Assembly: GCA_014896255.1 (NCBI GenBank)
Contig: JADBKT010000014.1
Location: 1 to 64,000 of the forward strand
Direction of reading: 5' to 3'
From: Hydrogenibacillus sp.
Lineage (GTDB): Bacteria; Bacillota; Bacilli; Thermicanales; DSM-22653
DNA: 64,000 nt
A program made the position numbers and the translations under genes. Shown one piece after another: positions 8,433 through 27,500 of the stretch (position 1 is its first letter; every line of letters starts with the position of its first letter). The notes under the pieces were generated by a model. It made no database searches and was not told the DNA's origin. It worked only from the letters and a program-made list of their open reading frames with translations.

Positions 8433-9584
8433 TCATCGAAGGTACTTCTCTTTCTCCTTCGGCACGCCGTATTGCAGGTAATACGAACGATACGTCACCT
8501 CCAGCGGCACAAAATCCATCTGGAGTCCGAAAGCCCGCGGTCCCCACACGTCAAGCGCTTCCTTCGTGCGCATGATCTCCGGTGTCGGAATGCCGATCAC
8601 CACCGCCCGTTGTCCATAGCGGATACGCTCGGTGGTGATGGCAAAGCCCGTCTCGCTGTCCACCAAGGTGATCAGATCGGGCACACTGGCAACGACTTTT
8701 CCGTCCAAGATGGCGGCCAAATTTTCATTTTGGAATCGCACTTCCATTACCCGTCCGACGTCGGTGCCGATCCCCGAAAGCACCGCCTGTCCTACGGCAA
8801 ACCCGGCCTCCGTACGGCGCACGACGTCGACCACTTTCCCTTCAAAGAGCCGCACCGCGCGACCGTAGATCGTCTGCTGCGTCGCCTCCGCAATCGCTTC
8901 CACAGGATGAATGCCGCGCCGCGGCGCCGATTTCACCGCTTCCCCGACGGCGATCCCCATCGAGATCGTGCCTCTTACGGCCGTGCGTTTGAAATCGGCA
9001 CCGCTCATCGGGTAATCCACGATATGCGCATGACCCCCCATGCGGATCGTCACCCCTCGCGCCAGCCACTCCAGCCGGTAATGATCGTTTGCGTCGATCA
9101 TCACGATGCTGCCGTGTTCATCCGCGAGAATGGCCGGCGTTCCGGACAATCCATAAACATGGAACGTTTCCATCTGCAGCTCGGGAAAAGCGCGTCCCAT
9201 CCCGTCCCCGTCGATGACGGGGATCCGGGCGCGGGCCGCAACGACAAACGGAATCATCGAATTGACACCGCCCGATTCGCTCGGACAGGTCGCATCGGCA
9301 CGACGCCCCAGCCTCTGCTCAGCCGCGCGAAAAGCGTGCAACGCTTCGTCTCCCGCCGGAATTTTTTCAATCATCACGGTCGGAGCTCCCATCATCGACG
9401 CGGGGAGAACAAACATGTCGTCGCCCACCTCTTCGGGATCGAGCAAGATCACCGGACCTTCCTCCCGAATCGCGCTTTGGGCCATCAACTTCCCGATCAG
9501 CGGGTCCCCGCCGCCGCCCGTTCCGAGGATCGCAGCGCCAATCGACAGAAACTCCAAGTCGCGCTCGTGAATCTCCCTCACCAC
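8433..9584 (-). CDS. DUF917 family protein, copy 1
   Basis: LSIGAAILGTGGGGDPLIGKLMAQ, PASMMGAPTVMIEKIP, PVIDGDGMGRAFPELQM, IRMGGHAHIVDYPM. Confidence 0.88.
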   Translation of the reverse strand: MVREIHERDLEFLSIGAAILGTGGGGDPLIGKLMAQSAIREEGPVILLDPEEVGDDMFVLPASMMGAPTVMIEKIPAGDEALHAFRAAEQRLGRRADATCPSESGGVNSMIPFVVAARARIPVIDGDGMGRAFPELQMETFHVYGLSGTPAILADEHGSIVMIDANDHYRLEWLARGVTIRMGGHAHIVDYPMSGADFKRTAVRGTISMGIAVGEAVKSAPRRGIHPVEAIAEATQQTIYGRAVRLFEGKVVDVVRRTEAGFAVGQAVLSGIGTDVGRVMEVRFQNENLAAILDGKVVASVPDLITLVDSETGFAITTERIRYGQRAVVIGIPTPEIMRTKEALDVWGPRAFGLQMDFVPLEVTYRSYYLQYGVPKEKEKYLR

Positions 9585-9606
9585 ATACCCTCCATTCTTG
9601 CCTCGA

Positions 9607-11178
9607 TCACGCCTTGATCGACCCGGCCGCCTTCACCTTAATGCGGACGGCATTGCCCGGCAGATACGCGAGGGGAATTTCCTCGATATCGATGATTTCG
9701 ACCCGGTCCGGATCCGCGCCCGCCTTGATCGCCGCATCCATCGCTTCGTGCTTTGCTTCCTGCAGGGCTTCTTCGCGTTTCTGCTGCTCCAGGGAAAACA
9801 GGCGATCCACCGTCCCGGAAACTTGGGCAATCGCGGCACCGACTGCATTGGCCACTTCATAATGCGGCGGACGAATCACTTCCGAAATGCCGGCCAACCG
9901 ATCGGGGAGAATGATGCTCCCGCCGCCGACCACGATCGCCGGCACCTCCCCGGCCCGCGTCTTAATCCGATCCACCGCCTCTTCCGCCATACCGACGGCG
10001 CGCGCAAAGATCTTGTCGATCACACCCTCCCGAACACGGACGCGGTCCGGATCGCCCAACCTCGCCATCCCTTTCGCCACCGCCACATCCGTCATCGTCA
10101 ATGTCTCCCCGCCGAAAACGAGGGCCCGTTCGACCACCTTGCTTCCGACGCTTTCCGGCCCGATCGCGATCGCATGCGGCGCATCGCCCGCCTCTTCGAC
10201 GATCCGGACCATCGTGCCGCCGCCGAGACCGATGGAGATCAGATCGGGCATGCGAAAATTCGTGCGTACGCCGCCGATCTCCACCGCCGCCGAAGATTCC
10301 CTTGGAAAACCGCCCGAAAGCACGCCGACGTCCGTCGAAGTCCCGCCGACATCGATGACCACCGCATCCTTCAAACCTGAAAGAAATCCGGCCCCCCGCA
10401 TACTGTTCGTCGGTCCCGAAGCGACGGTCAAAATCGGATAGCGGCGGGCGTAATCGAGAGACATCAAGGTGCCGTCATTCTGCGCAAGGTACAGCGCCGC
10501 ATGGATCCCAAGCGCCCGCATGGCATTGCGAAACGCCGAAATGACATCATGCGCGACCGTCCGAACGGCGGCGTTCAAAACCGTCGCATTTTCGCGTTCC
10601 AAAAGACCGACACTGCCGATTTCGTGCGACAGCGAAACATGAGCGCGTTCACCGGCCAGCGACTCGATGATTTCCATCGTCCGCCGCTCATCGTCATTCC
10701 GCACCGGGGAAAACACGGCCGTCACCGCAAAGGCGCGAATGCCTTGATCGAGCGCCTCGCTGACAAAACGCCTCACCGCGTCGGCGTCAAAGGGGGAAAT
10801 CGGACGGCCGTCGTATTCGACCCCGCCCGGGAGAATGACGGTCGGCCCCTCCACCTTCGTCCGGATGTCTTCCGGCCAATCGGCCAAGGGAGGGATGGCC
10901 CGCGTCGCCGGCGCACCCAAGCGAAGGATGGCGACGCGTTCCAGACCACGCCGCTCGATGATGGCGTTGGTCACCTGCGTCGTGCCGAGCATCGCATGCG
11001 TGATCGCATCCGGCGCGACGCCGGAGCGGGAAAGCACGTCTTGGGCCGCCGCCGCAATGCCGCTGATGACGTCATCGGTCACCGGCGTCTTGGCCTTGGC
11101 GACCACCTGTTGCCGCCCATCGATCAACACCGCATCCGTGTTCGTTCCGCCGACGTCAATTCCCAGTCGATAACCCAT
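9607..11178 (-). CDS. Hydantoinase/oxoprolinase N-terminal family (HyuA-like ATPase)
   Basis: MGYRLGIDVGGTNTDAVLIDGRQQVVAKAKTPVT, GTTQVTNAIIERRGLERVAILR, VVIDVGGTSTDVGVL. Start trimmed from the 692-aa ORF to ATG 11178. Confidence 0.9.
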   Translation of the reverse strand: MGYRLGIDVGGTNTDAVLIDGRQQVVAKAKTPVTDDVISGIAAAAQDVLSRSGVAPDAITHAMLGTTQVTNAIIERRGLERVAILRLGAPATRAIPPLADWPEDIRTKVEGPTVILPGGVEYDGRPISPFDADAVRRFVSEALDQGIRAFAVTAVFSPVRNDDERRTMEIIESLAGERAHVSLSHEIGSVGLLERENATVLNAAVRTVAHDVISAFRNAMRALGIHAALYLAQNDGTLMSLDYARRYPILTVASGPTNSMRGAGFLSGLKDAVVIDVGGTSTDVGVLSGGFPRESSAAVEIGGVRTNFRMPDLISIGLGGGTMVRIVEEAGDAPHAIAIGPESVGSKVVERALVFGGETLTMTDVAVAKGMARLGDPDRVRVREGVIDKIFARAVGMAEEAVDRIKTRAGEVPAIVVGGGSIILPDRLAGISEVIRPPHYEVANAVGAAIAQVSGTVDRLFSLEQQKREEALQEAKHEAMDAAIKAGADPDRVEIIDIEEIPLAYLPGNAVRIKVKAAGSIKA

Positions 11179-12268
11179 GGCGATCCACCTCATCGATTGG
11201 AATGTAGTCAAACGCATAACCAAAGCGCCGCGGGCCGACCAGCTCCAAGCCGGCCTGTGTCCGCCACAGGGGCGCGCATGGCAGGCCGAAAACCATGACG
11301 CGCTGTCCATAGGCGATCGATTCCGTCGTGATCGGCATGAACGTCTCCGCATCGAGCAACGCGATAATGTCGGGCACCATCGCCACCGGTTCCCCATCGC
11401 GCATGGCCACCAGGTGCTCGTTTTGGAACTCCACCCGCATGACCGAGCCGTCGTCGCGATCGAATCCGACGATCGTCGCCGTCCCGCGGACAAAGCCGCC
11501 CTCCGTACGCCTGATGACGTCCACCACTTTCCCCTGAAACAGCGGAATCCCCCCGGTCGCCTGAGAAAACGCATCAAATGACATCTTCCCCTGCGCCAGG
11601 CTTCGAAGCCATCGCCCATATCGGATCGTTTGACTGAGCGAACCTTCGACGACGGCTGAGCGAACTGCCTTCGTTTCCATCGCATACAACGCGATCGCGG
11701 CCGATCCGCCCATCATCACCGTGATCATGCGGCTGATCCGTTCCGCCCATGCATTGTCCACCGCATCGACGACGACCCGATTCCCGCGCTCATCGGCCAT
11801 GGCCATGGGGGCTGCGGGCACACCGGACAAATTCATCGAGGTCATCGGAATTTCCGGAAACGCGCGGCCCATCCCATCGGCATCCAGGACGGGGAGGTTC
11901 AACATGGCAGCGGCGATCAGGGGAACGAATGAATTTTCACCCCCGATTTCTGCGGACATCAATGCGACGATGTCGTCCTTCAAGAAAGACTTCGCGAGAC
12001 GAACGACCGTATCCCATTCCTGACCGCTTGGAATTTTTTCAACAGAAACCGTCGGTGCCCCCATCATCGCCACCGGAAGAACGATGCCTGCTTGGGGCAA
12101 TTCTTCGACGCGAATCAAACGGACCGGACCCTTTTCCTTCATGACTTGCTTGGCCATCAACTTTCCGAGATGCGGATCGCCGCCGCCGCCCGCGCCCAAC
12201 AAAGCGGCGCCCACCGCCAAGTCGTCGAGATCTTCCACGGTCACCCAACGCATCGGTCTATCCCTCAA
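11156..12268 (-). CDS. DUF917 family protein, copy 2
   Basis: LAVGAALLGAGGGGDPHLGKLMAK, PVAMMGAPTVSVEKIP, PVLDADGMGRAFPEIPM. Confidence 0.88.
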   Translation of the reverse strand: MRDRPMRWVTVEDLDDLAVGAALLGAGGGGDPHLGKLMAKQVMKEKGPVRLIRVEELPQAGIVLPVAMMGAPTVSVEKIPSGQEWDTVVRLAKSFLKDDIVALMSAEIGGENSFVPLIAAAMLNLPVLDADGMGRAFPEIPMTSMNLSGVPAAPMAMADERGNRVVVDAVDNAWAERISRMITVMMGGSAAIALYAMETKAVRSAVVEGSLSQTIRYGRWLRSLAQGKMSFDAFSQATGGIPLFQGKVVDVIRRTEGGFVRGTATIVGFDRDDGSVMRVEFQNEHLVAMRDGEPVAMVPDIIALLDAETFMPITTESIAYGQRVMVFGLPCAPLWRTQAGLELVGPRRFGYAFDYIPIDEVDRHGLSTGN

Positions 12269-13608
12269 ATCCTCGTCTCACGAAAGCGAAAATCCGTTTT
12301 CCTGTTCTTCACAATCAACACCTTCATCATGAGATAATAAAGCATGCCCGCCAGCACGAGCGTATTCAAGGACGGGATGCCCCACGGCAGCTTAAAACCC
12401 AAATACGAAGCGACGATCCAGGAGAACACCATCGCCGGATTCCAGTTCTCCGCCTTTTCGGGCAAAACGCCTTGGGCGCGGCTTTCTTCGAGATCTTTTC
12501 GATACCGTTTGAGGATAAAATATTCCACGACCATAATGCCGCCTAAAGCGGGAATCGTAACGCCGAGGAAAGTCAAGAAATCTACAAACCGGTCCAAAAT
12601 CCCAAGGGCCGACAAAATCGATCCCAAGGTCCCGATCATCAAGGTGATAAAACCTCTGTGCAGTTTCCGCTTGGTGAGCGTGTTCATGAGATTGACAAAA
12701 CCCAGAGAAGATGAATAAAGATTCCAATCGTTGATCTTGATCGTCGCCGTGATCAAAATCAGCACGCCGAGCGCACCGCTGGTCGACATGACAATATGGA
12801 TGATATCGTCACTTTGGGCGGCATGGGCAAGAAGCACCCCGGCCAAACCGATCGGATATTGCCCCAACGTAATGCTGATGATCGACTGCTTGACCACGTC
12901 CTTCGTCGAACGGTTAAACCGCGTCATGTCGGGCGAAATGATCGCCCCGATCATATAGCCTCCGGCTACGATCGTTGCGCCGGCAGCGATGCTGAGCGTC
13001 GGCCCGGGAGGTGCAGAGGTCATCAATTCGCCCACGGCATGTCGGGACAGGGCGGCATAGACGGAATACCCTGCCAGGAACAAAAAGGCGGGAACGGTGA
13101 TATAAGCGGTCCAAGCCATGGAAAGAAACCCATAGATGACGATCACCGTGACGGCCAGGCCCGTCATCAATGACCAAAGCCAAACAGGCAAAACTCCCAC
13201 CAGTTGATGAATCCCTTCAGCGAAGACCGCATTTTGAATTCCGAACCAACCGATCAGACTGACGGCAACGATGAAAGAAATGACCGCTGACCCGTAATAA
13301 CCAAAACCGGTCCAGCGTCCGAGCACCGTCGTGCTGAGGCCTTCTTTCTGGCCCGCGATCCCGACGAAGATCGCCACCACTTCGAGGATCGCCGTGCCCA
13401 AGGTCAACGCCCAAAAGGCATCGACGAACGTCATCCCGTAGCCGAGTGCCGCGCCTAACATAAATTGCGTCAAATCGGAAAGCTGCCCAAAGCGCTGCAC
13501 CGCCACGCTCCACCAAGCGTACCGTGCCGCCATCGGAACGCGCGTCAACGCATAATCATCGCTGCCGATATCCGCGCCCAGCGGCTCTCCCGCACGATCA
13601 TCGGCCAT
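12265..13608 (-). CDS. NCS1 family permease (cytosine/hydantoin-type)
   Basis: Polytopic membrane protein; GYGMTFVDAFWALTLG, ISPDMTRFNRSTKDVVKQS, TIPALGGIMVVEYFILKRY. ATG 13608 after GGAAGGGG chosen over TTG 13626. Confidence 0.85.
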   Translation of the reverse strand: MADDRAGEPLGADIGSDDYALTRVPMAARYAWWSVAVQRFGQLSDLTQFMLGAALGYGMTFVDAFWALTLGTAILEVVAIFVGIAGQKEGLSTTVLGRWTGFGYYGSAVISFIVAVSLIGWFGIQNAVFAEGIHQLVGVLPVWLWSLMTGLAVTVIVIYGFLSMAWTAYITVPAFLFLAGYSVYAALSRHAVGELMTSAPPGPTLSIAAGATIVAGGYMIGAIISPDMTRFNRSTKDVVKQSIISITLGQYPIGLAGVLLAHAAQSDDIIHIVMSTSGALGVLILITATIKINDWNLYSSSLGFVNLMNTLTKRKLHRGFITLMIGTLGSILSALGILDRFVDFLTFLGVTIPALGGIMVVEYFILKRYRKDLEESRAQGVLPEKAENWNPAMVFSWIVASYLGFKLPWGIPSLNTLVLAGMLYYLMMKVLIVKNRKTDFRFRETRI

Positions 13609-13667
13609 AAGCTTCACCCCTTCCAATGAATTAAGACGATTGTAAGGGGTGAAGCACCCCGCGTCTT
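13606..13667 (-). promoter_or_regulatory. Switch-like leader: two alternative hairpins over the NCS1 permease RBS
   Basis: RNA AAGACGCGGGGUGCUUCACCCCUUACAAUCGUCUUAAUUCAUUGGAAGGGGUGAAGCUUAUG. Fold A: AAGACG/CGUCUU plus GGGGUG/CACCCC. Fold B: GCUUCACCCCUU/AAGGGGUGAAGC, 12-bp perfect, covering the SD. Confidence 0.6.
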
Positions 13668-13676
13668 CATTCAGAA

Positions 13677-15368
13677 TTAAAAACTTTCGCCCTCGTTTTG
13701 TTCAGCTTGAACAAAACGCGCGACCCGTTCTTCCATCATTTGATAAGCGCGAATGCTGAGCGAGAGCAAATAGACGTTCTCCGGATCGCTGAGGTTGACG
13801 TTGGTGCGTTGTTCAAACTGATGGAGCCGGTAGCGCACCGTATTGCGGTGAAGCGACAGCCGCTCCGCCGCACGGGTTATGTCGCCGTTGGTCGCAACCA
13901 GCGCGGCGATCGTCTCGAGCATCGCCCGACGTTGTTGTACGGGCAGGTCAAAGAGCGGGCCGAGCATCTCATCGATCAGTTGCTGCGCCTCTGGAGACGT
14001 ATACCAGCGATAGAGATAGCGTTCCGCACCGACATCTTCGATGGTCGCGACCGTTCCGGGACCGAAGCGCAAGCTGCCAAGATCCAACGCTTCCTTCGCT
14101 TCGCGGTACGATCGCCTGAGACCCTCCACGCCCGCATACGCCCGTCCGATCCCCATCGAGACGAGGCCGATGGTTTTTTCCTGTTCCAAGTGCTTTTGGA
14201 CTTCGAGCATCACGGCTTTGAGATCGTCCGCGCCCCAAAGCGCTTCTCCCGTGCGGCGGATGACGAAGATGAACCGGCCGGGCTCCATTACCGCACCGAG
14301 CGCCCACCACCAGGCACGGCGAAGCTCCGTCTCCGCCACGGCAATCAGCCGCGATTCCCGCTGCAACATCGCCATTTCGGTCAACGCGCGCGCCGGATCC
14401 GCGATCCCGATCGCCGAGTCCGAAGAGGCCACGGCCAGTTTGACCAGAACCACGGCATGCGGCTTGTCCGCGTCCCAGCCTGCTTCGCGCGCTTGAAACA
14501 ACACATCGGGCTTGGCCTCCTCCGCGGCCTCGATCAGCGCGCGGATGAGCTCCCAGTTCGAGCGAAGACGGGCGTCCCAAGCAAGTACACGCCGCTCGAA
14601 AGCCGCTTCGATCCACGTTGCGGCTACCGGCAGCACGCGGCACAAGACCGCATCCATCCCCGGCTCGTTTTTCGTTTCACATCGAAGGAGATAGGCCGTG
14701 TCTTTTCGCCCTCTGAGCACGACATCCGCCGTCCCGTGCAAACGATCTCCCGCCTCGCGAATCCTAAGTCCGGCGGCGCGGCTCGCATCTTCCGCTACGC
14801 CGTCATCCTGCGCGTCGCTTCCGGCTTGGGATCGGGCAACCAATTCACAAGTGCCGTTTAATAACGTGCCGAGAAGATGCGTCAGCGCTTCGACCGACTG
14901 GCGGGACCGCCACGCGACGAGCAATTGCGACAAAATGCCGTCCGTCATCTGATAAACGCTAAGCTTCGCATTTAACCGGTGCGCCGCGATGCGCTCCGCC
15001 CAATCCATGACGTCGGTTCGACCAAGATCGATGACGGGCAGCTGCAGTTGATCCGCCAAGAGCACCGTCGCAAGCGGCAATCCGGTTCCGGGACGGGCGC
15101 CGGATAACGGCTCGACCCGCTCGCCTTGCACGAGAATGCCGCTCGCGTCGGCAAAAGCGAGTCGCCGGATCAACGCATCGACGTCCGGAGAACCCCGCCA
15201 GAACCATTGCGCCGGAACAAAGTAAAGCGTCTTCGGCCGAAATGCCGTCTCCGTCGACCGCTCTTCGCAAAACGCCAAACGCTCGACCGCCCGGGACAGC
15301 CCCGCTTTGCCGGCCAACACGCGCACCGTCGTATCGCCGATCTGTTTCAACAAGTCCGCGACGATCAT
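13677..15368 (-). CDS. PucR family transcriptional regulator
   Basis: C-terminal LVATNGDITRAAERLSLHRNTVRYRLHQFEQRTNVNLSDPENVYLLSLSIRA (PucR-type HTH) with GAF/GGDEF-like middle region. Confidence 0.88.
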   Translation of the reverse strand: MIVADLLKQIGDTTVRVLAGKAGLSRAVERLAFCEERSTETAFRPKTLYFVPAQWFWRGSPDVDALIRRLAFADASGILVQGERVEPLSGARPGTGLPLATVLLADQLQLPVIDLGRTDVMDWAERIAAHRLNAKLSVYQMTDGILSQLLVAWRSRQSVEALTHLLGTLLNGTCELVARSQAGSDAQDDGVAEDASRAAGLRIREAGDRLHGTADVVLRGRKDTAYLLRCETKNEPGMDAVLCRVLPVAATWIEAAFERRVLAWDARLRSNWELIRALIEAAEEAKPDVLFQAREAGWDADKPHAVVLVKLAVASSDSAIGIADPARALTEMAMLQRESRLIAVAETELRRAWWWALGAVMEPGRFIFVIRRTGEALWGADDLKAVMLEVQKHLEQEKTIGLVSMGIGRAYAGVEGLRRSYREAKEALDLGSLRFGPGTVATIEDVGAERYLYRWYTSPEAQQLIDEMLGPLFDLPVQQRRAMLETIAALVATNGDITRAAERLSLHRNTVRYRLHQFEQRTNVNLSDPENVYLLSLSIRAYQMMEERVARFVQAEQNEGESF

Positions 15369-16300
15369 CGGTGATACGGTTCCCCTCCACGACCCATCTC
15401 ATGCGTTATGCTTTGCAGTTCACGCAAAAAAGACACAACCTTTCGATCGATGTACCCCTTCGGCTGAATACGTTCGTCGAGGTTTTCGATCAGCTGAAAC
15501 GACATGAGCGCTTCTTCAAAACGCGCGTCGTCGACCGGCTCGCCTTGGGCGGCTGCCGCAGGCAAGTAACCCAGCGCGGCGAGATCGCGGATGAGCGCCG
15601 CGCGGAGCGCCGCATCGATCGGAACGATGTCCTCCGGTTGCGGTTTTTTATAATACAGCGCATGCAGTTCCATCAACCGACCGAGCTCACGTACCGGTTC
15701 CGTGTGATCATCGACGCGCAGATCGAGATACCGGTCGGTCAACCCACCGTAGCCGCCGCCCGGCCGTTCGACGACGATCGCGGCCGACTGCTTGCCGCGC
15801 TTGTCGCCGCCGGCGGCATCACCCGCCGCAAGCGCCGCATAAAGCCGGTCGGCCAGTTCACCGGACGTCGACGCGAACGCTTCGGCCATGCGTTCGACCA
15901 CGTCCGGACCGGCCAACACATTGCCCTGTACCGCGAAATGCGCGCCGTGAATGCCGCCGGCCCAGGCGTAACAGGCGCTCCCCGTGAACGTCGCGCTGCC
16001 GCCGCGCGCGTCGACGATGCCGACCTGACGTACCTCGCGCTCTTGATCCTCGCCGGTGAGCACGCGCAGCGCCTCTTCCGCAGACATTCCCACGGACAGG
16101 TATTTTAACCCTTTTTCACCATACGCCGGATTCGCCCACGCCTGCGTCGCAATCGCACCGACGCCGGCCTTCACCCAAGGCACGATGCTCCCTACCGCAA
16201 GAAACTTCGACGCGACCGCGACCCCGACATCGCCGGTCGCCGGATCGAACGCCGCGATCGAAAACGTCAAAATCCCCTTGCCTCGTTGTATTTTTTGCAT
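15365..16300 (-). CDS. DUF1028 family protein (Ntn-hydrolase-like)
   Basis: LTFSIAAFDPATGDVGVAVASKFLAVGSIVPWVKAGVGAIATQAWANPAYGEKGLKYLSVGMSAEEAL. Confidence 0.85.
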   Translation of the reverse strand: MQKIQRGKGILTFSIAAFDPATGDVGVAVASKFLAVGSIVPWVKAGVGAIATQAWANPAYGEKGLKYLSVGMSAEEALRVLTGEDQEREVRQVGIVDARGGSATFTGSACYAWAGGIHGAHFAVQGNVLAGPDVVERMAEAFASTSGELADRLYAALAAGDAAGGDKRGKQSAAIVVERPGGGYGGLTDRYLDLRVDDHTEPVRELGRLMELHALYYKKPQPEDIVPIDAALRAALIRDLAALGYLPAAAAQGEPVDDARFEEALMSFQLIENLDERIQPKGYIDRKVVSFLRELQSITHEMGRGGEPYHR

Positions 16301-16391
16301 GTTTTGTGCCTCTTTTCTTCTCATGTGTTGATCTGCCTTTGGAAAATGATTTTTTCGCCGTCGCGCGCCCAATGTCCTCCGGAACAGACGG

Positions 16392-16419
16392 TTGACAACG
16401 GCTCATTCTGTAATATAAT
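16392..16419 (+). promoter_or_regulatory. Putative sigma-A promoter for isocitrate lyase
   Basis: Consensus TTGACA (16392-16397), 16 nt, TATAAT (16414-16419). Confidence 0.8.
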
Positions 16420-16472
16420 AGTGGTGAATGTTAATTATTATTGTATAACAGGGGATCGAAAGGAGAGAGACC

Positions 16473-17753
16473 ATGCCCACCAAACAAGAACGCGCCGCGC
16501 ACATCCGTCGAGATTGGGAGACGAACCCCCGCTGGGAGGGCATCCGCCGCGACTATTCGCCGGATGATGTGGTCGCCTTGCAAGGAACGGTGCAGATCGA
16601 ACACACGCTCGCCCGCCGCGGAGCCGAACGGTTTTGGCGCGAGGTAAACGACCCGCACGACTTTATTCGCGCCCTCGGCGCGCTCACCGGCGGACAGGCG
16701 GTACAGATGGTCAAGGCCGGACTGAAAGCCATTTACGTCAGCGGCTGGCAGGTCGCCGCCGACGCCAACCTCGCCGGGGCGACCTACCCGGATCAAAGCT
16801 TATACCCGGCGAACAGCGTCCCCGCGCTCGTGAGACGCATCAATCAGGCGCTCATGCGCGCCGATCAGATCCACGCCTTGGAAGGCAAGACGGACATCGA
16901 TTGGTTTGTGCCCATCGTCGCCGACGCCGAAGCGGGTTTTGGCGGACCGCTCAACGTCTTTGAGTTGACCAAACAGATGATCGAAGCCGGCGCCGCGGCG
17001 ATCCACCTGGAAGATCAACTGTCGTCGGAGAAAAAATGCGGTCATATGGGCGGAAAAGTATTGCTCCCGACTTCCCACGCCATCCGCAATTTGAACGCGG
17101 CGCGGCTCGCCGCCGACGTTCTCGGCGTGCCGACGGTGATCATCGCCCGCACCGACGCGGGCGGCGCCACGCTGCTTACCTCCGACATCGACCCGCGCGA
17201 TCAGAAATTTTTGACCGGCGAACGCACGCCGGAAGGGTACTTCGTCGTCCAGGCGGGCTTGGAGCAGGCCATCGACCGCGCCCTCTCGTACGCCCCGTAC
17301 GCCGATCTGCTCTGGTTTGAGACGAGCGAGCCCAACCTCGACGAAGCACGCCGGTTTGCCGAAGCGATTCACGCCAAGTACCCGGGCAAACGCCTCGCCT
17401 ACAACTGCTCGCCGTCCTTCAATTGGAAGAAAAAGCTCAACCCCGAGGCGATCGCCAACTTTCAAGAGACCATCGCAAAGATGGGTTATACGTTTCAGTT
17501 CGTCACATTGGCCGGTTTCCACGCGTTGAATCACAGCATGTTCGAACTCGCCCGCGACTATGCCGTACGCGGTATGGCCGCCTACGCCGACCTGCAACAG
17601 CGGGAGTTCGAAAGCGAAGCCGACGGCTACACCGCCACGCGCCATCAGCGGGAAGTCGGCGCCGGCTATTTCGATCAGGTGTCGCTCATCGTCTCCGGCG
17701 GCCTTGCCTCGACGCTCGCCCTCGTCGGCTCCACGGAAGAAGAGCAGTTTTAG
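16473..17753 (+). CDS. aceA: Isocitrate lyase
   Basis: [13 protein letters not shown]-like ([32 protein letters not shown]), [29 protein letters not shown]. Confidence 0.95.
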
Positions 17754-24539: not shown

Positions 24540-27500
24540 ACCCGCTCGGTCCGTCGCTCAAGGGCGTGAGCGTAAAACCGAGCGCCTGAAGGGCCAAGGC
24601 GAACGCCCGTGCCGTATCGAGCGACGTAAAGCAGCCCAGACCGCGTTCGACCGCTGCGCGGCGGATGCGAAAACCGTCGCGCTCCGGCGAAGTGCCCGCC
24701 GTCCACGTGTTGATGACCACGTCGACTTCGCCGGAGGCGATGAGGTCGAGGACCGTCGGCGGAGGACCGTCGATTTTGCCCACGACCTCTACGGGCAGTC
24801 CATGGTCGCGCATAAACGCCGCCGTTCCCGGCGTCGCGTAAAGCCGAATGCCGAGCGCATGAAGCGCCCGGGCGACATCGACCGCCGCCGCCTTGTCGCG
24901 ATCGGACAGCGAAAAAAGCGCCGCTTCGTGACGCAGACGAACGGCGCCGGCGCCGAGCAGCGCCTTGTATAGCGCCTTGGCCCCGTCGTCGTCTCGGGCC
25001 ATCACTTCTCCCGTCGATTTCATCACCGGCCCCAACGTGACGTCGACGCTGGCCAACTTGGCGAAAGAGAAGACCGGTGCCTTGACATACGCCGCCGGCG
25101 GTTCCGGGTAAAGCCCGCCGAGGACGCCGAACGTCGACAGCGACTCGCCGAGCATGACCGCCGTCGCCCAGCGAAGCAGCGGAAGCCCGGTGGCCTTGCT
25201 CAAAAACGGGAGCGTCCGCGAGGCGCGCGGGTTGGCTTCCAACACGTAGACGCGCGGGCCGTCGACGACGAATTGCACGTTGAGGAGCCCCCGCACCTGA
25301 AGCGCCCGGGCGATGGCCGACGTCACTTCCACGATCGCCGTTTGAACGGCAGGCGCAAGGTTCGTCGCCGGATACCGGGCGATGGAATCGCCGGAGTGGA
25401 CGCCGGCGCGTTCGACGTGGGCGATAATGCCGGGGATGAACACCGTCTCCCCGTCGCTGATCGCGTCCACTTCGAGTTCTTCCCCTTCGATGTAACGGTC
25501 GATGAGCAGCGGATGATCGAGCGGGCGATCATCGGAGGCGCTCCAGATGCGGCCGACGTATGCTTTCAGGGCCGCCTCGTCGTGCACGATGGTCATCTCC
25601 CGTCCGCCGAGTACGTAGGATGGGCGGACGACGAGGGGAAAGCCGAGCGATCGGGCCCCAAACAGCGCCTCCTCCGCGGTGCGCGCCGCGATTCCGCGCG
25701 GCCGTTCAATGCCGAGGCCGTTTAACACGGCGTCGAATTTCTCGCGGTCCTCCGCTTGATCGATCGACGAAAGCGGCGTGCCGAGAATCGGATATCCGGC
25801 CGCCGCGACGGCGTGGGCCAAACGAAGCGCCGTCTGCCCGCCGAATTGGACGAGAACGCCGAGCGGCCGTTCGCGTTCCAAGACGGCCAAGACGTCTTCC
25901 TCGGCGACGGGTTCGACGTACACCGCATCGGCCAAGGTGTAGTCCGTCGATACCGTCTCCGGATTCGTATTCACAATGGCGACACGATACCCGCGGGCCT
26001 TGGCCTCGAGCACGGCGTGCACGGTGGCATAATCGAACTCGAGCCCTTGCCCGATGCGGATCGGCCCGGCCCCGAGAACGACGATCGTCGGCCGCGCATC
26101 CACGCGCGAAGGCGTCGTTTCCCCGCGCCCATCGCAGGCTGCAAGATCATACGTCGCATACCAAAGCGGGGGCGTCTTACCCGGTGCGGTACGGCCGCCG
26201 TCCGTCCAACACGGAACGATGCCGTTTTCCTCGCGGAAACGCCGCACCGCCTCGGCACGTGTCCCCGCAAAGCGCGCGACGGCGCTGTCGGCCATGCCCA
26301 GCTCTTTGGCCCGGCGGACGGCCGCCGGGGTCATGCCTTCCGCTTTCAGGGCCGTCTCGACGTCGACGATCGCCTGAAGCGCTTCGACGAACGGCCGCGG
26401 AATCCCGCTTCGGTCGACCACCGTTTCGATCATCGGCCCGTTGCGACCCGACGCCGCCGACGCGCCGACTTCCGTCCCGCGGCGCAACGCTTCGATCAAG
26501 CGGAACAGACGGCGATCGTCGGAGCGATCCAGTTCGGCAAGCAGCGCTTCCGTCGGCAGCCGGCGGATCTCCGCGTCCTCCAGGTGGTCGTAACCGACTT
26601 CGAGCGCCCGCACACCTTTCAAAAGCGCCTCGGCAAGCGATCGGCCGATGGTCATCGTCTCGCCCGTGGCGCGCATCTCCGTACCGAGCGAACGGTCCAT
26701 CCCGGGAAAGGCGTCAAACGGAAAGCGCGGCCACTTGACGACGACGTCGGCGAGCACGGGCGGCTCCGACGCCCGACGTCCGGTCGACGGGAGCGTAATC
26801 TCGTCGAGCGTCATACCGACGGCAAGGAGCGCCGAGACGTAAGCGATCGGATAGCCGGTCGCCTTGGATGCGAGCGCGCTGGAACGGGAGACGCGGGGGT
26901 TCAGCTCGATGACCCAGTACTGATCGCGCTCGGGGTCGTAGGCGAACTGGACGTTGGCCCCGCCGACGATGCCGATGGCCCGGACGATGCGCACCGCCGC
27001 GCGGCTGAGCCGCTCCACGGCGGCGTCGCTTAAGGAGACGGCCGGTGCGACGACGACGGAATCGCCGGTGTGTACGCCGACCGGATCGACGTTTTCCATC
27101 ACCGCCACGACGACCGCTTGATCGCGCGCGTCGCGCACCACCTCGAACTCGATTTCCCGTAAACCGTAAAGGCTCGTTTCGATCAGCGCCTGGCGGATGG
27201 GGCTGACCTGTAGGGCGCGGGCAACGGTCGCCTGAAGCGTTTCCAGATCGTGGACATGGCCGCCGCCCGTGCCGCCGAGCGTATACGCCGGACGCACGAC
27301 GAGCGGAAAACCGTGTTCCTCGGCAAAAAAGAGCGCTTCACCCGTGCTCTGCACCGCCGTCGACGCCGGCACCGGCTCTCCCAGCTCGCGCATGCGGGCC
27401 CGAAAACGGTCGCGGTCTTCACCGTCCTCGATCGCCGCAAGCGGCGTACCGATCAACTCGGTTCCGGCGGCCTGAAGCACGCCCCGTTCGGCGAGCGCGC

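Follow-up and report, generated by a model that had tools for sequence, protein, structure and literature searches.

Between a pucR-type regulator gene and an NCS1-family permease gene of Hydrogenibacillus sp., a long inverted repeat spans the Shine-Dalgarno (SD) sequence of the permease, and the locus raises the question of what this repeat does. A first-pass annotation, made from the letters alone, had assigned the 62 bases at 13606-13667 to two alternating hairpins of a riboswitch or translational attenuator or, alternatively, to a PucR operator. We analyzed the repeat in the stretch of DNA that contains it (64,000 nt, hereafter the window) and in related loci. In our assessment, the same 62 bases very likely form a promoter for the permease, a layer of the interpretation that is well supported, and the hairpin is probably not a riboswitch. 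A role of the hairpin in insulating the permease from pucR transcription is moderately supported, and the whole reading, i.e., a promoter combined with insulation by an SD-masking hairpin, is given an even chance of being right.

Gene neighborhood and the inverted repeat

The pucR-type activator gene (13677 to 15368, minus strand, 563 aa), assigned from its ORF and Pfam matches, encodes a PucR N-terminal domain (just under the Pfam cut-off), a GGDEF_2 domain, and a C-terminal HTH_30 domain. Across a 68-nt gap on the same strand lies the NCS1-family permease gene (12265 to 13608, 447 aa, with its ATG at 13606-13608), identified by Pfam PF02133 and with a cytosine-permease-like NCBIfam match below cut-off, and this is followed by a downstream operon gene encoding a DUF917/S-Me-THD-like protein (11156 to 12268, minus strand; Pfam and NCBIfam). 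On the minus strand, the genes run DUF1028, pucR, NCS1 permease, DUF917/S-Me-THD, HyuA-like, and a second DUF917, with the HTH_30-bearing PucR-family regulator adjoining its target operon. No terminator was found between pucR and the permease in the window.

The HyuA-like protein is flanked by the two DUF917/S-Me-THD proteins (8433-12268), and NCBIfam relates the DUF917 and HyuA-like proteins, below cut-off, to thiohydantoin desulfurases, which suggests that the permease may carry a hydantoin- or thiohydantoin-type substrate. A literature search for thiohydantoin desulfurase found no paper under that name. On the plus strand, a 12/12 sigma-70-type promoter match (TTGACA-16-TATAAT, 16392-16419) precedes an apparent isocitrate lyase gene (ORF 16473-17753), and it is overlapped by a weaker minus-strand promoter candidate for the DUF1028-pucR unit.

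The minus-strand sequence, the coordinates, and both complementarities described in the first-pass annotation were exactly reproduced. In the RNA, the 12-bp perfect inverted repeat is made up of the 5' arm GCTTCACCCCTT (13644 to 13655, minus strand), which is the anti-SD, and the 3' arm AAGGGGTGAAGC (13611 to 13622, minus strand), which holds the SD AAGGGG (13617-13622); it extends to 16/17 complementary positions (13611-13627 / 13639-13655). Both the shuffles and a repeat scan made a chance origin unlikely. Just six perfect inverted repeats having arms of 11 bp or longer and a loop of 3 to 60 nt occurred in the 64-kb window, and pairing between the 5' arm and the leader exceeded that in shuffles of either segment (p about 0.001-0.002). 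The minus-strand RNA of 13590-13690 (101 nt) folded with −33.4 kcal/mol, compared to a shuffle mean of −24.6 (z = −2.7). Two of the six repeats, the one at 13611-13655 and an 11-bp dyad at 13694-13718, lie within ~110 bases. A further 12-bp perfect inverted repeat, CTCCGGCGAAGT with a loop of 31, is found at 24682-24736 inside a 1092-aa minus-strand ORF.

Neither hairpin arm was a repeated genomic element, the genome's two exact half-site matches being the arms themselves. A dispersed repeat or mobile element was rejected since no second copy was present in the genome, and an intrinsic terminator at the hairpin was rejected since the 3' arm is not followed by a T-run.

Candidate operator and promoter geometry in nine pucR-NCS1 loci

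The 11-bp dyad is a candidate PucR operator (site 1, 25 bp, 13694 to 13718), with perfect arms around a 3-nt centre, CGTTTTGTTCA-AGC-TGAACAAAACG, and the core TTGTKCA-NNN-TGMACAA at 13698-13714. It is positioned within the last pucR codons, has no other mismatch-free copy in the genome, and would, in our reading, be bound by this PucR. A second operator-like site, TTTTTAATTCTGAATGA (13667 to 13683, minus strand), is degenerate and, in the window, weak. It overlaps the stop codon of pucR and is separated by 31 bp from site 1 and by about 31 bp from the −10 box. The −10 box TACAAT (5/6, 13639 to 13644, minus strand) is preceded by a poor −35-like hexamer, AAGACG (3/6, 13662 to 13667, minus strand), as expected of an activator-dependent promoter. 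The 5' arm of the repeat lies within the −35/−10 spacer, and the transcription start is predicted near 13632, downstream of this arm and inside the hairpin loop. The resulting permease leader would be ~24 nt long, with the SD predicted to be free.

This geometry was compared over nine pucR-NCS1 loci, namely, the window and L031, L032, L033, L035, L037, L066, L118/L144, and L132/L145, where L032 is a Hydrogenibacillus schlegelii contig (matching G001, the sole other same-genus genome in the 100-genome relatives search) and L066 is from an Alicyclobacillus MAG. A pucR-type gene was the same-strand neighbor of the permease in all eight relative loci, and every locus had the dyad TTGTKCA-NNN-TGMACAA upstream of the permease, in full or degenerate form. 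In eight of the nine loci, a TANNNT −10 box (at least 4/6 match) was located 62 to 64 bp from the centre of site 1 (spacings of 62, 62, 63, 62, 62, 62, 64, and 64 bp). Agreement in 3000 shuffles was never above 3/9, and an offset of 31 gave the best summed score for the second site over the nine loci (p <= 0.001 versus shuffles), with the reservation that the shuffles do not model the shared ancestry of the loci. Where the −10 box was displaced, the second site was likewise displaced, to an offset of 32-33. Leaders were 21-27 nt long in eight of the nine loci, and four families, the window, and the Alicyclobacillus MAG had little else in common between the operator and −10 elements. Candidate inverted-repeat operators are thus found at a fixed distance upstream of the −35/−10 elements.

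More distant pucR-like/NCS1 loci (L119, L120, and L137-L142) were without the long spacing and had a TTGTGCA half-site with a purine-rich SD a short way downstream, a pattern that suggests a different promoter layout.

The idea that the 12-bp repeat is itself the PucR operator was rejected because the conserved operator-like element is another dyad, which lies within the 3' end of pucR (13694-13718). Instead, a repressor or a second regulator might use the repeat as its DNA operator and thereby cover the −10 box and the start; the repeat is a perfect dyad around the −10 box, and its arm centres are 33 bp apart, about three helical turns. However, the sequence varies in relatives, yet the complementarity recurs, other genomic copies of the element are absent beyond the two arms, and the conserved operator is a different dyad. 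We therefore consider a second DNA operator improbable.

Folding of the leader and exposure of the SD

Predicted exposure of the SD shifted with the 5' end of the RNA. With a 5' end at 13650 or farther upstream, the RNA had a masked SD regardless of the 5' extension (unpairedness 0.12), while the SD was 0.51-0.68 unpaired in RNAs starting from 13645 or later. In seven of the nine loci, SD exposure was likewise predicted to be greater for the short RNA than for the long one, the exceptions being L132 and L037.

The proposed riboswitch consisted of fold A, where AAGACG/CGTCTT encloses GGGGTG/CACCCC, and fold B, the 12-bp repeat, with the two alternating upon ligand binding. All of these segments are present, and the folds are mutually exclusive since CACCCC is common to both; fold B was, moreover, able to bury the permease SD in the predicted structures. 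These features favor a switch, but the implied equality of the two folds was not found. Fold A as drawn had −13.7 kcal/mol and the 12 pairs of fold B alone had −20.4, while the minimum-energy structure (−28.7 kcal/mol) was an extension of fold B, leaving fold A weaker by 7-15 kcal/mol. No Rfam family matched at the site (a search of 12000-16500 gave a single match at E <= 10, which lay away from the site on the opposite strand and scored well under the gathering score), and there was no aptamer-like domain at the site. Furthermore, the 5' arms lie ahead of the predicted start of the conserved promoter and overlap the promoter itself, with the −35-like hexamer doubling as the outer 5' arm of fold A. 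The relatives did not keep both folds through compensatory changes: complementarity with the geometry of fold B recurred in a minority of them, with shifts in register, and no counterpart of fold A was noticed when the eight relatives were inspected. Given the unequal fold energies, the constant masking in long RNAs, and the missing Rfam match, a two-state ligand switch at the permease leader is not supported, and with the promoter overlap also considered, we rejected the riboswitch as a very remote prospect. Fold A could form transiently while a read-through RNA is being transcribed.

Insulation best explains why so good a repeat encloses a promoter. We propose that the PucR-type regulator would bind the dyad at about −74 and the weaker one at about −43, and would recruit RNA polymerase to the poor −35 and TACAAT −10 promoter of the permease operon. 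The RNA from this promoter would begin in the hairpin loop near 13632, and since this start falls in the loop, the 5' arm would be missing from the permease's own mRNA and the SD would be exposed. Because the 5' arm is situated in the promoter spacer, the repeat could act only on RNA entering from pucR. Such read-through RNA, which we infer to be made, would contain both arms and fold into a 12-17 bp hairpin masking the permease SD, and this masking would be expected to reduce translation. The permease would then be made only upon activation of its own promoter and not via leakage of pucR transcription. The layout, with a 5' arm upstream of an internal start (predicted from the conserved −10 box) and a 3' arm holding the SD, together with the predicted masking in long and opening in short RNA, is that of a fold-back element.

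Pairing between the spacer and the leader, with the −10 box in the loop, was stronger than in shuffles for L033 (p 0.004) and L132 (p 0.034), suggestive for L118 (p 0.088) and L037 (p 0.099), and not beyond chance for L031, L032, L035, and L066. The complementarity thus recurred clearly in one other lineage (the two sister loci L033 and L132), weakly in two, and not in the rest. The combined p without the window was 0.004; when only one of the sisters was kept, it was 0.014 to 0.049 when the 5' arm was shuffled and about 0.007 when the leader was shuffled, and without both L033 and L132 significance was missed among the remaining relatives (p 0.15 and 0.06, respectively). The two sisters kept the complementarity with different bases and in a shifted register. 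We examined this pair for strict covariation and do not claim it, since the shift in register means that this is not formal column-by-column covariation.

The main rival of insulation is that the promoter is real and the repeat functionless, the C-rich −35/−10 spacer complementing the purine-rich SD by an accident of base composition. Most relatives pair no better than shuffles, significance among them hinges on two sister loci, and a C-rich spacer opposite a G-rich SD may well pair accidentally. On the other hand, a 12-bp perfect repeat, 16/17 when extended and one of so few in 64 kb, is improbable by chance, and the p values for the window and L033 are low. We regard the accident as a possible explanation, clearly short of an even chance. 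Alternatively, the hairpin could mainly serve in processing or stability of the read-through transcript, e.g., as an RNase III site parting pucR from the permease message. A long stem between two co-transcribed genes would fit such a role, but the position of the promoter start in the loop would be left unexplained, and we assign this little probability.

In L032, which is without the pairing, the stretch between pucR and the operator contains a stem of −20.3 kcal/mol with the T-rich tail TTTGTTCTG, as if a terminator took on the insulating job in this one genome. L033 had both a possible terminator and the hairpin. Upstream of position 4001 in L066, there was no spanning hairpin; this locus has a strong hairpin of its own, CAAGGCCGCCG...CGGCGCCTTG, which lies wholly inside the 45-nt leader and touches the SD region.

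Implications and comparison with known systems

If insulation is the function of the hairpin, an insertion-sequence trick would be at work in an ordinary catabolic operon, parting a regulator from its target without a terminator. We tentatively raise the idea, which we think doubtful as a generalization, that chromosomal operons have repeatedly and independently come to place an activator-dependent promoter inside the loop of an SD-masking hairpin so as to avoid expression by read-through from their own regulator genes, an arrangement interchangeable with a terminator. For scans of RNA elements, this locus recommends looking for a promoter between the arms before an SD-covering inverted repeat is called a riboswitch. 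In addition, the motif TTGTKCA-NNN-TGMACAA, paired with a second site 31 bp away, can be tested as a rule for binding by this PucR subfamily. The literature searched contained nothing relevant on a pucR-permease read-through element; on related structures in insertion sequences, PMC2965389 cites Davis, Simons and Kleckner 1985 (fold-back inhibition in IS10/IS50) and Beuzon 1999 (IS200 RNA structures).

The PucR-type activators GabR, PutR, and AdeR bind inverted repeats next to the −35 region, with two 21-bp repeats between −87 and −23 for Corynebacterium glutamicum GabR, 17 bp for PutR, and 24 bp for AdeR (PMC7652997). The inverted repeats here have a matching promoter position, a likeness of layout, with TTGTKCA-NNN-TGMACAA derived by footprinting only. 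Unlike in those systems, site 1 is embedded in the 3' end of the very gene that encodes the regulator.

Translation of Staphylococcus aureus sigH is suppressed by a perfect inverted repeat of 13 bases in its 5'-UTR, which masks the RBS just ahead of the start codon, and deletion of one half releases expression (PMC3486894). Both are perfect inverted repeats that mask, or here are predicted to mask, the RBS; the sigH repeat is, however, contained in the 5' UTR, whereas the 5' arm here is predicted to lie upstream of the permease start.

For the IS10/IS50 transposase, the SD in RNA that enters from outside is reportedly masked by an upstream arm, one that transcripts from the element's own promoter do not have. 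The pucR-permease locus is predicted to share this division between an external RNA with an SD-masking upstream arm and an own-promoter RNA without it. It differs in that the protected gene is a chromosomal catabolic permease, that the external RNA would come from the gene of its own regulator, and that the internal promoter would be regulated.
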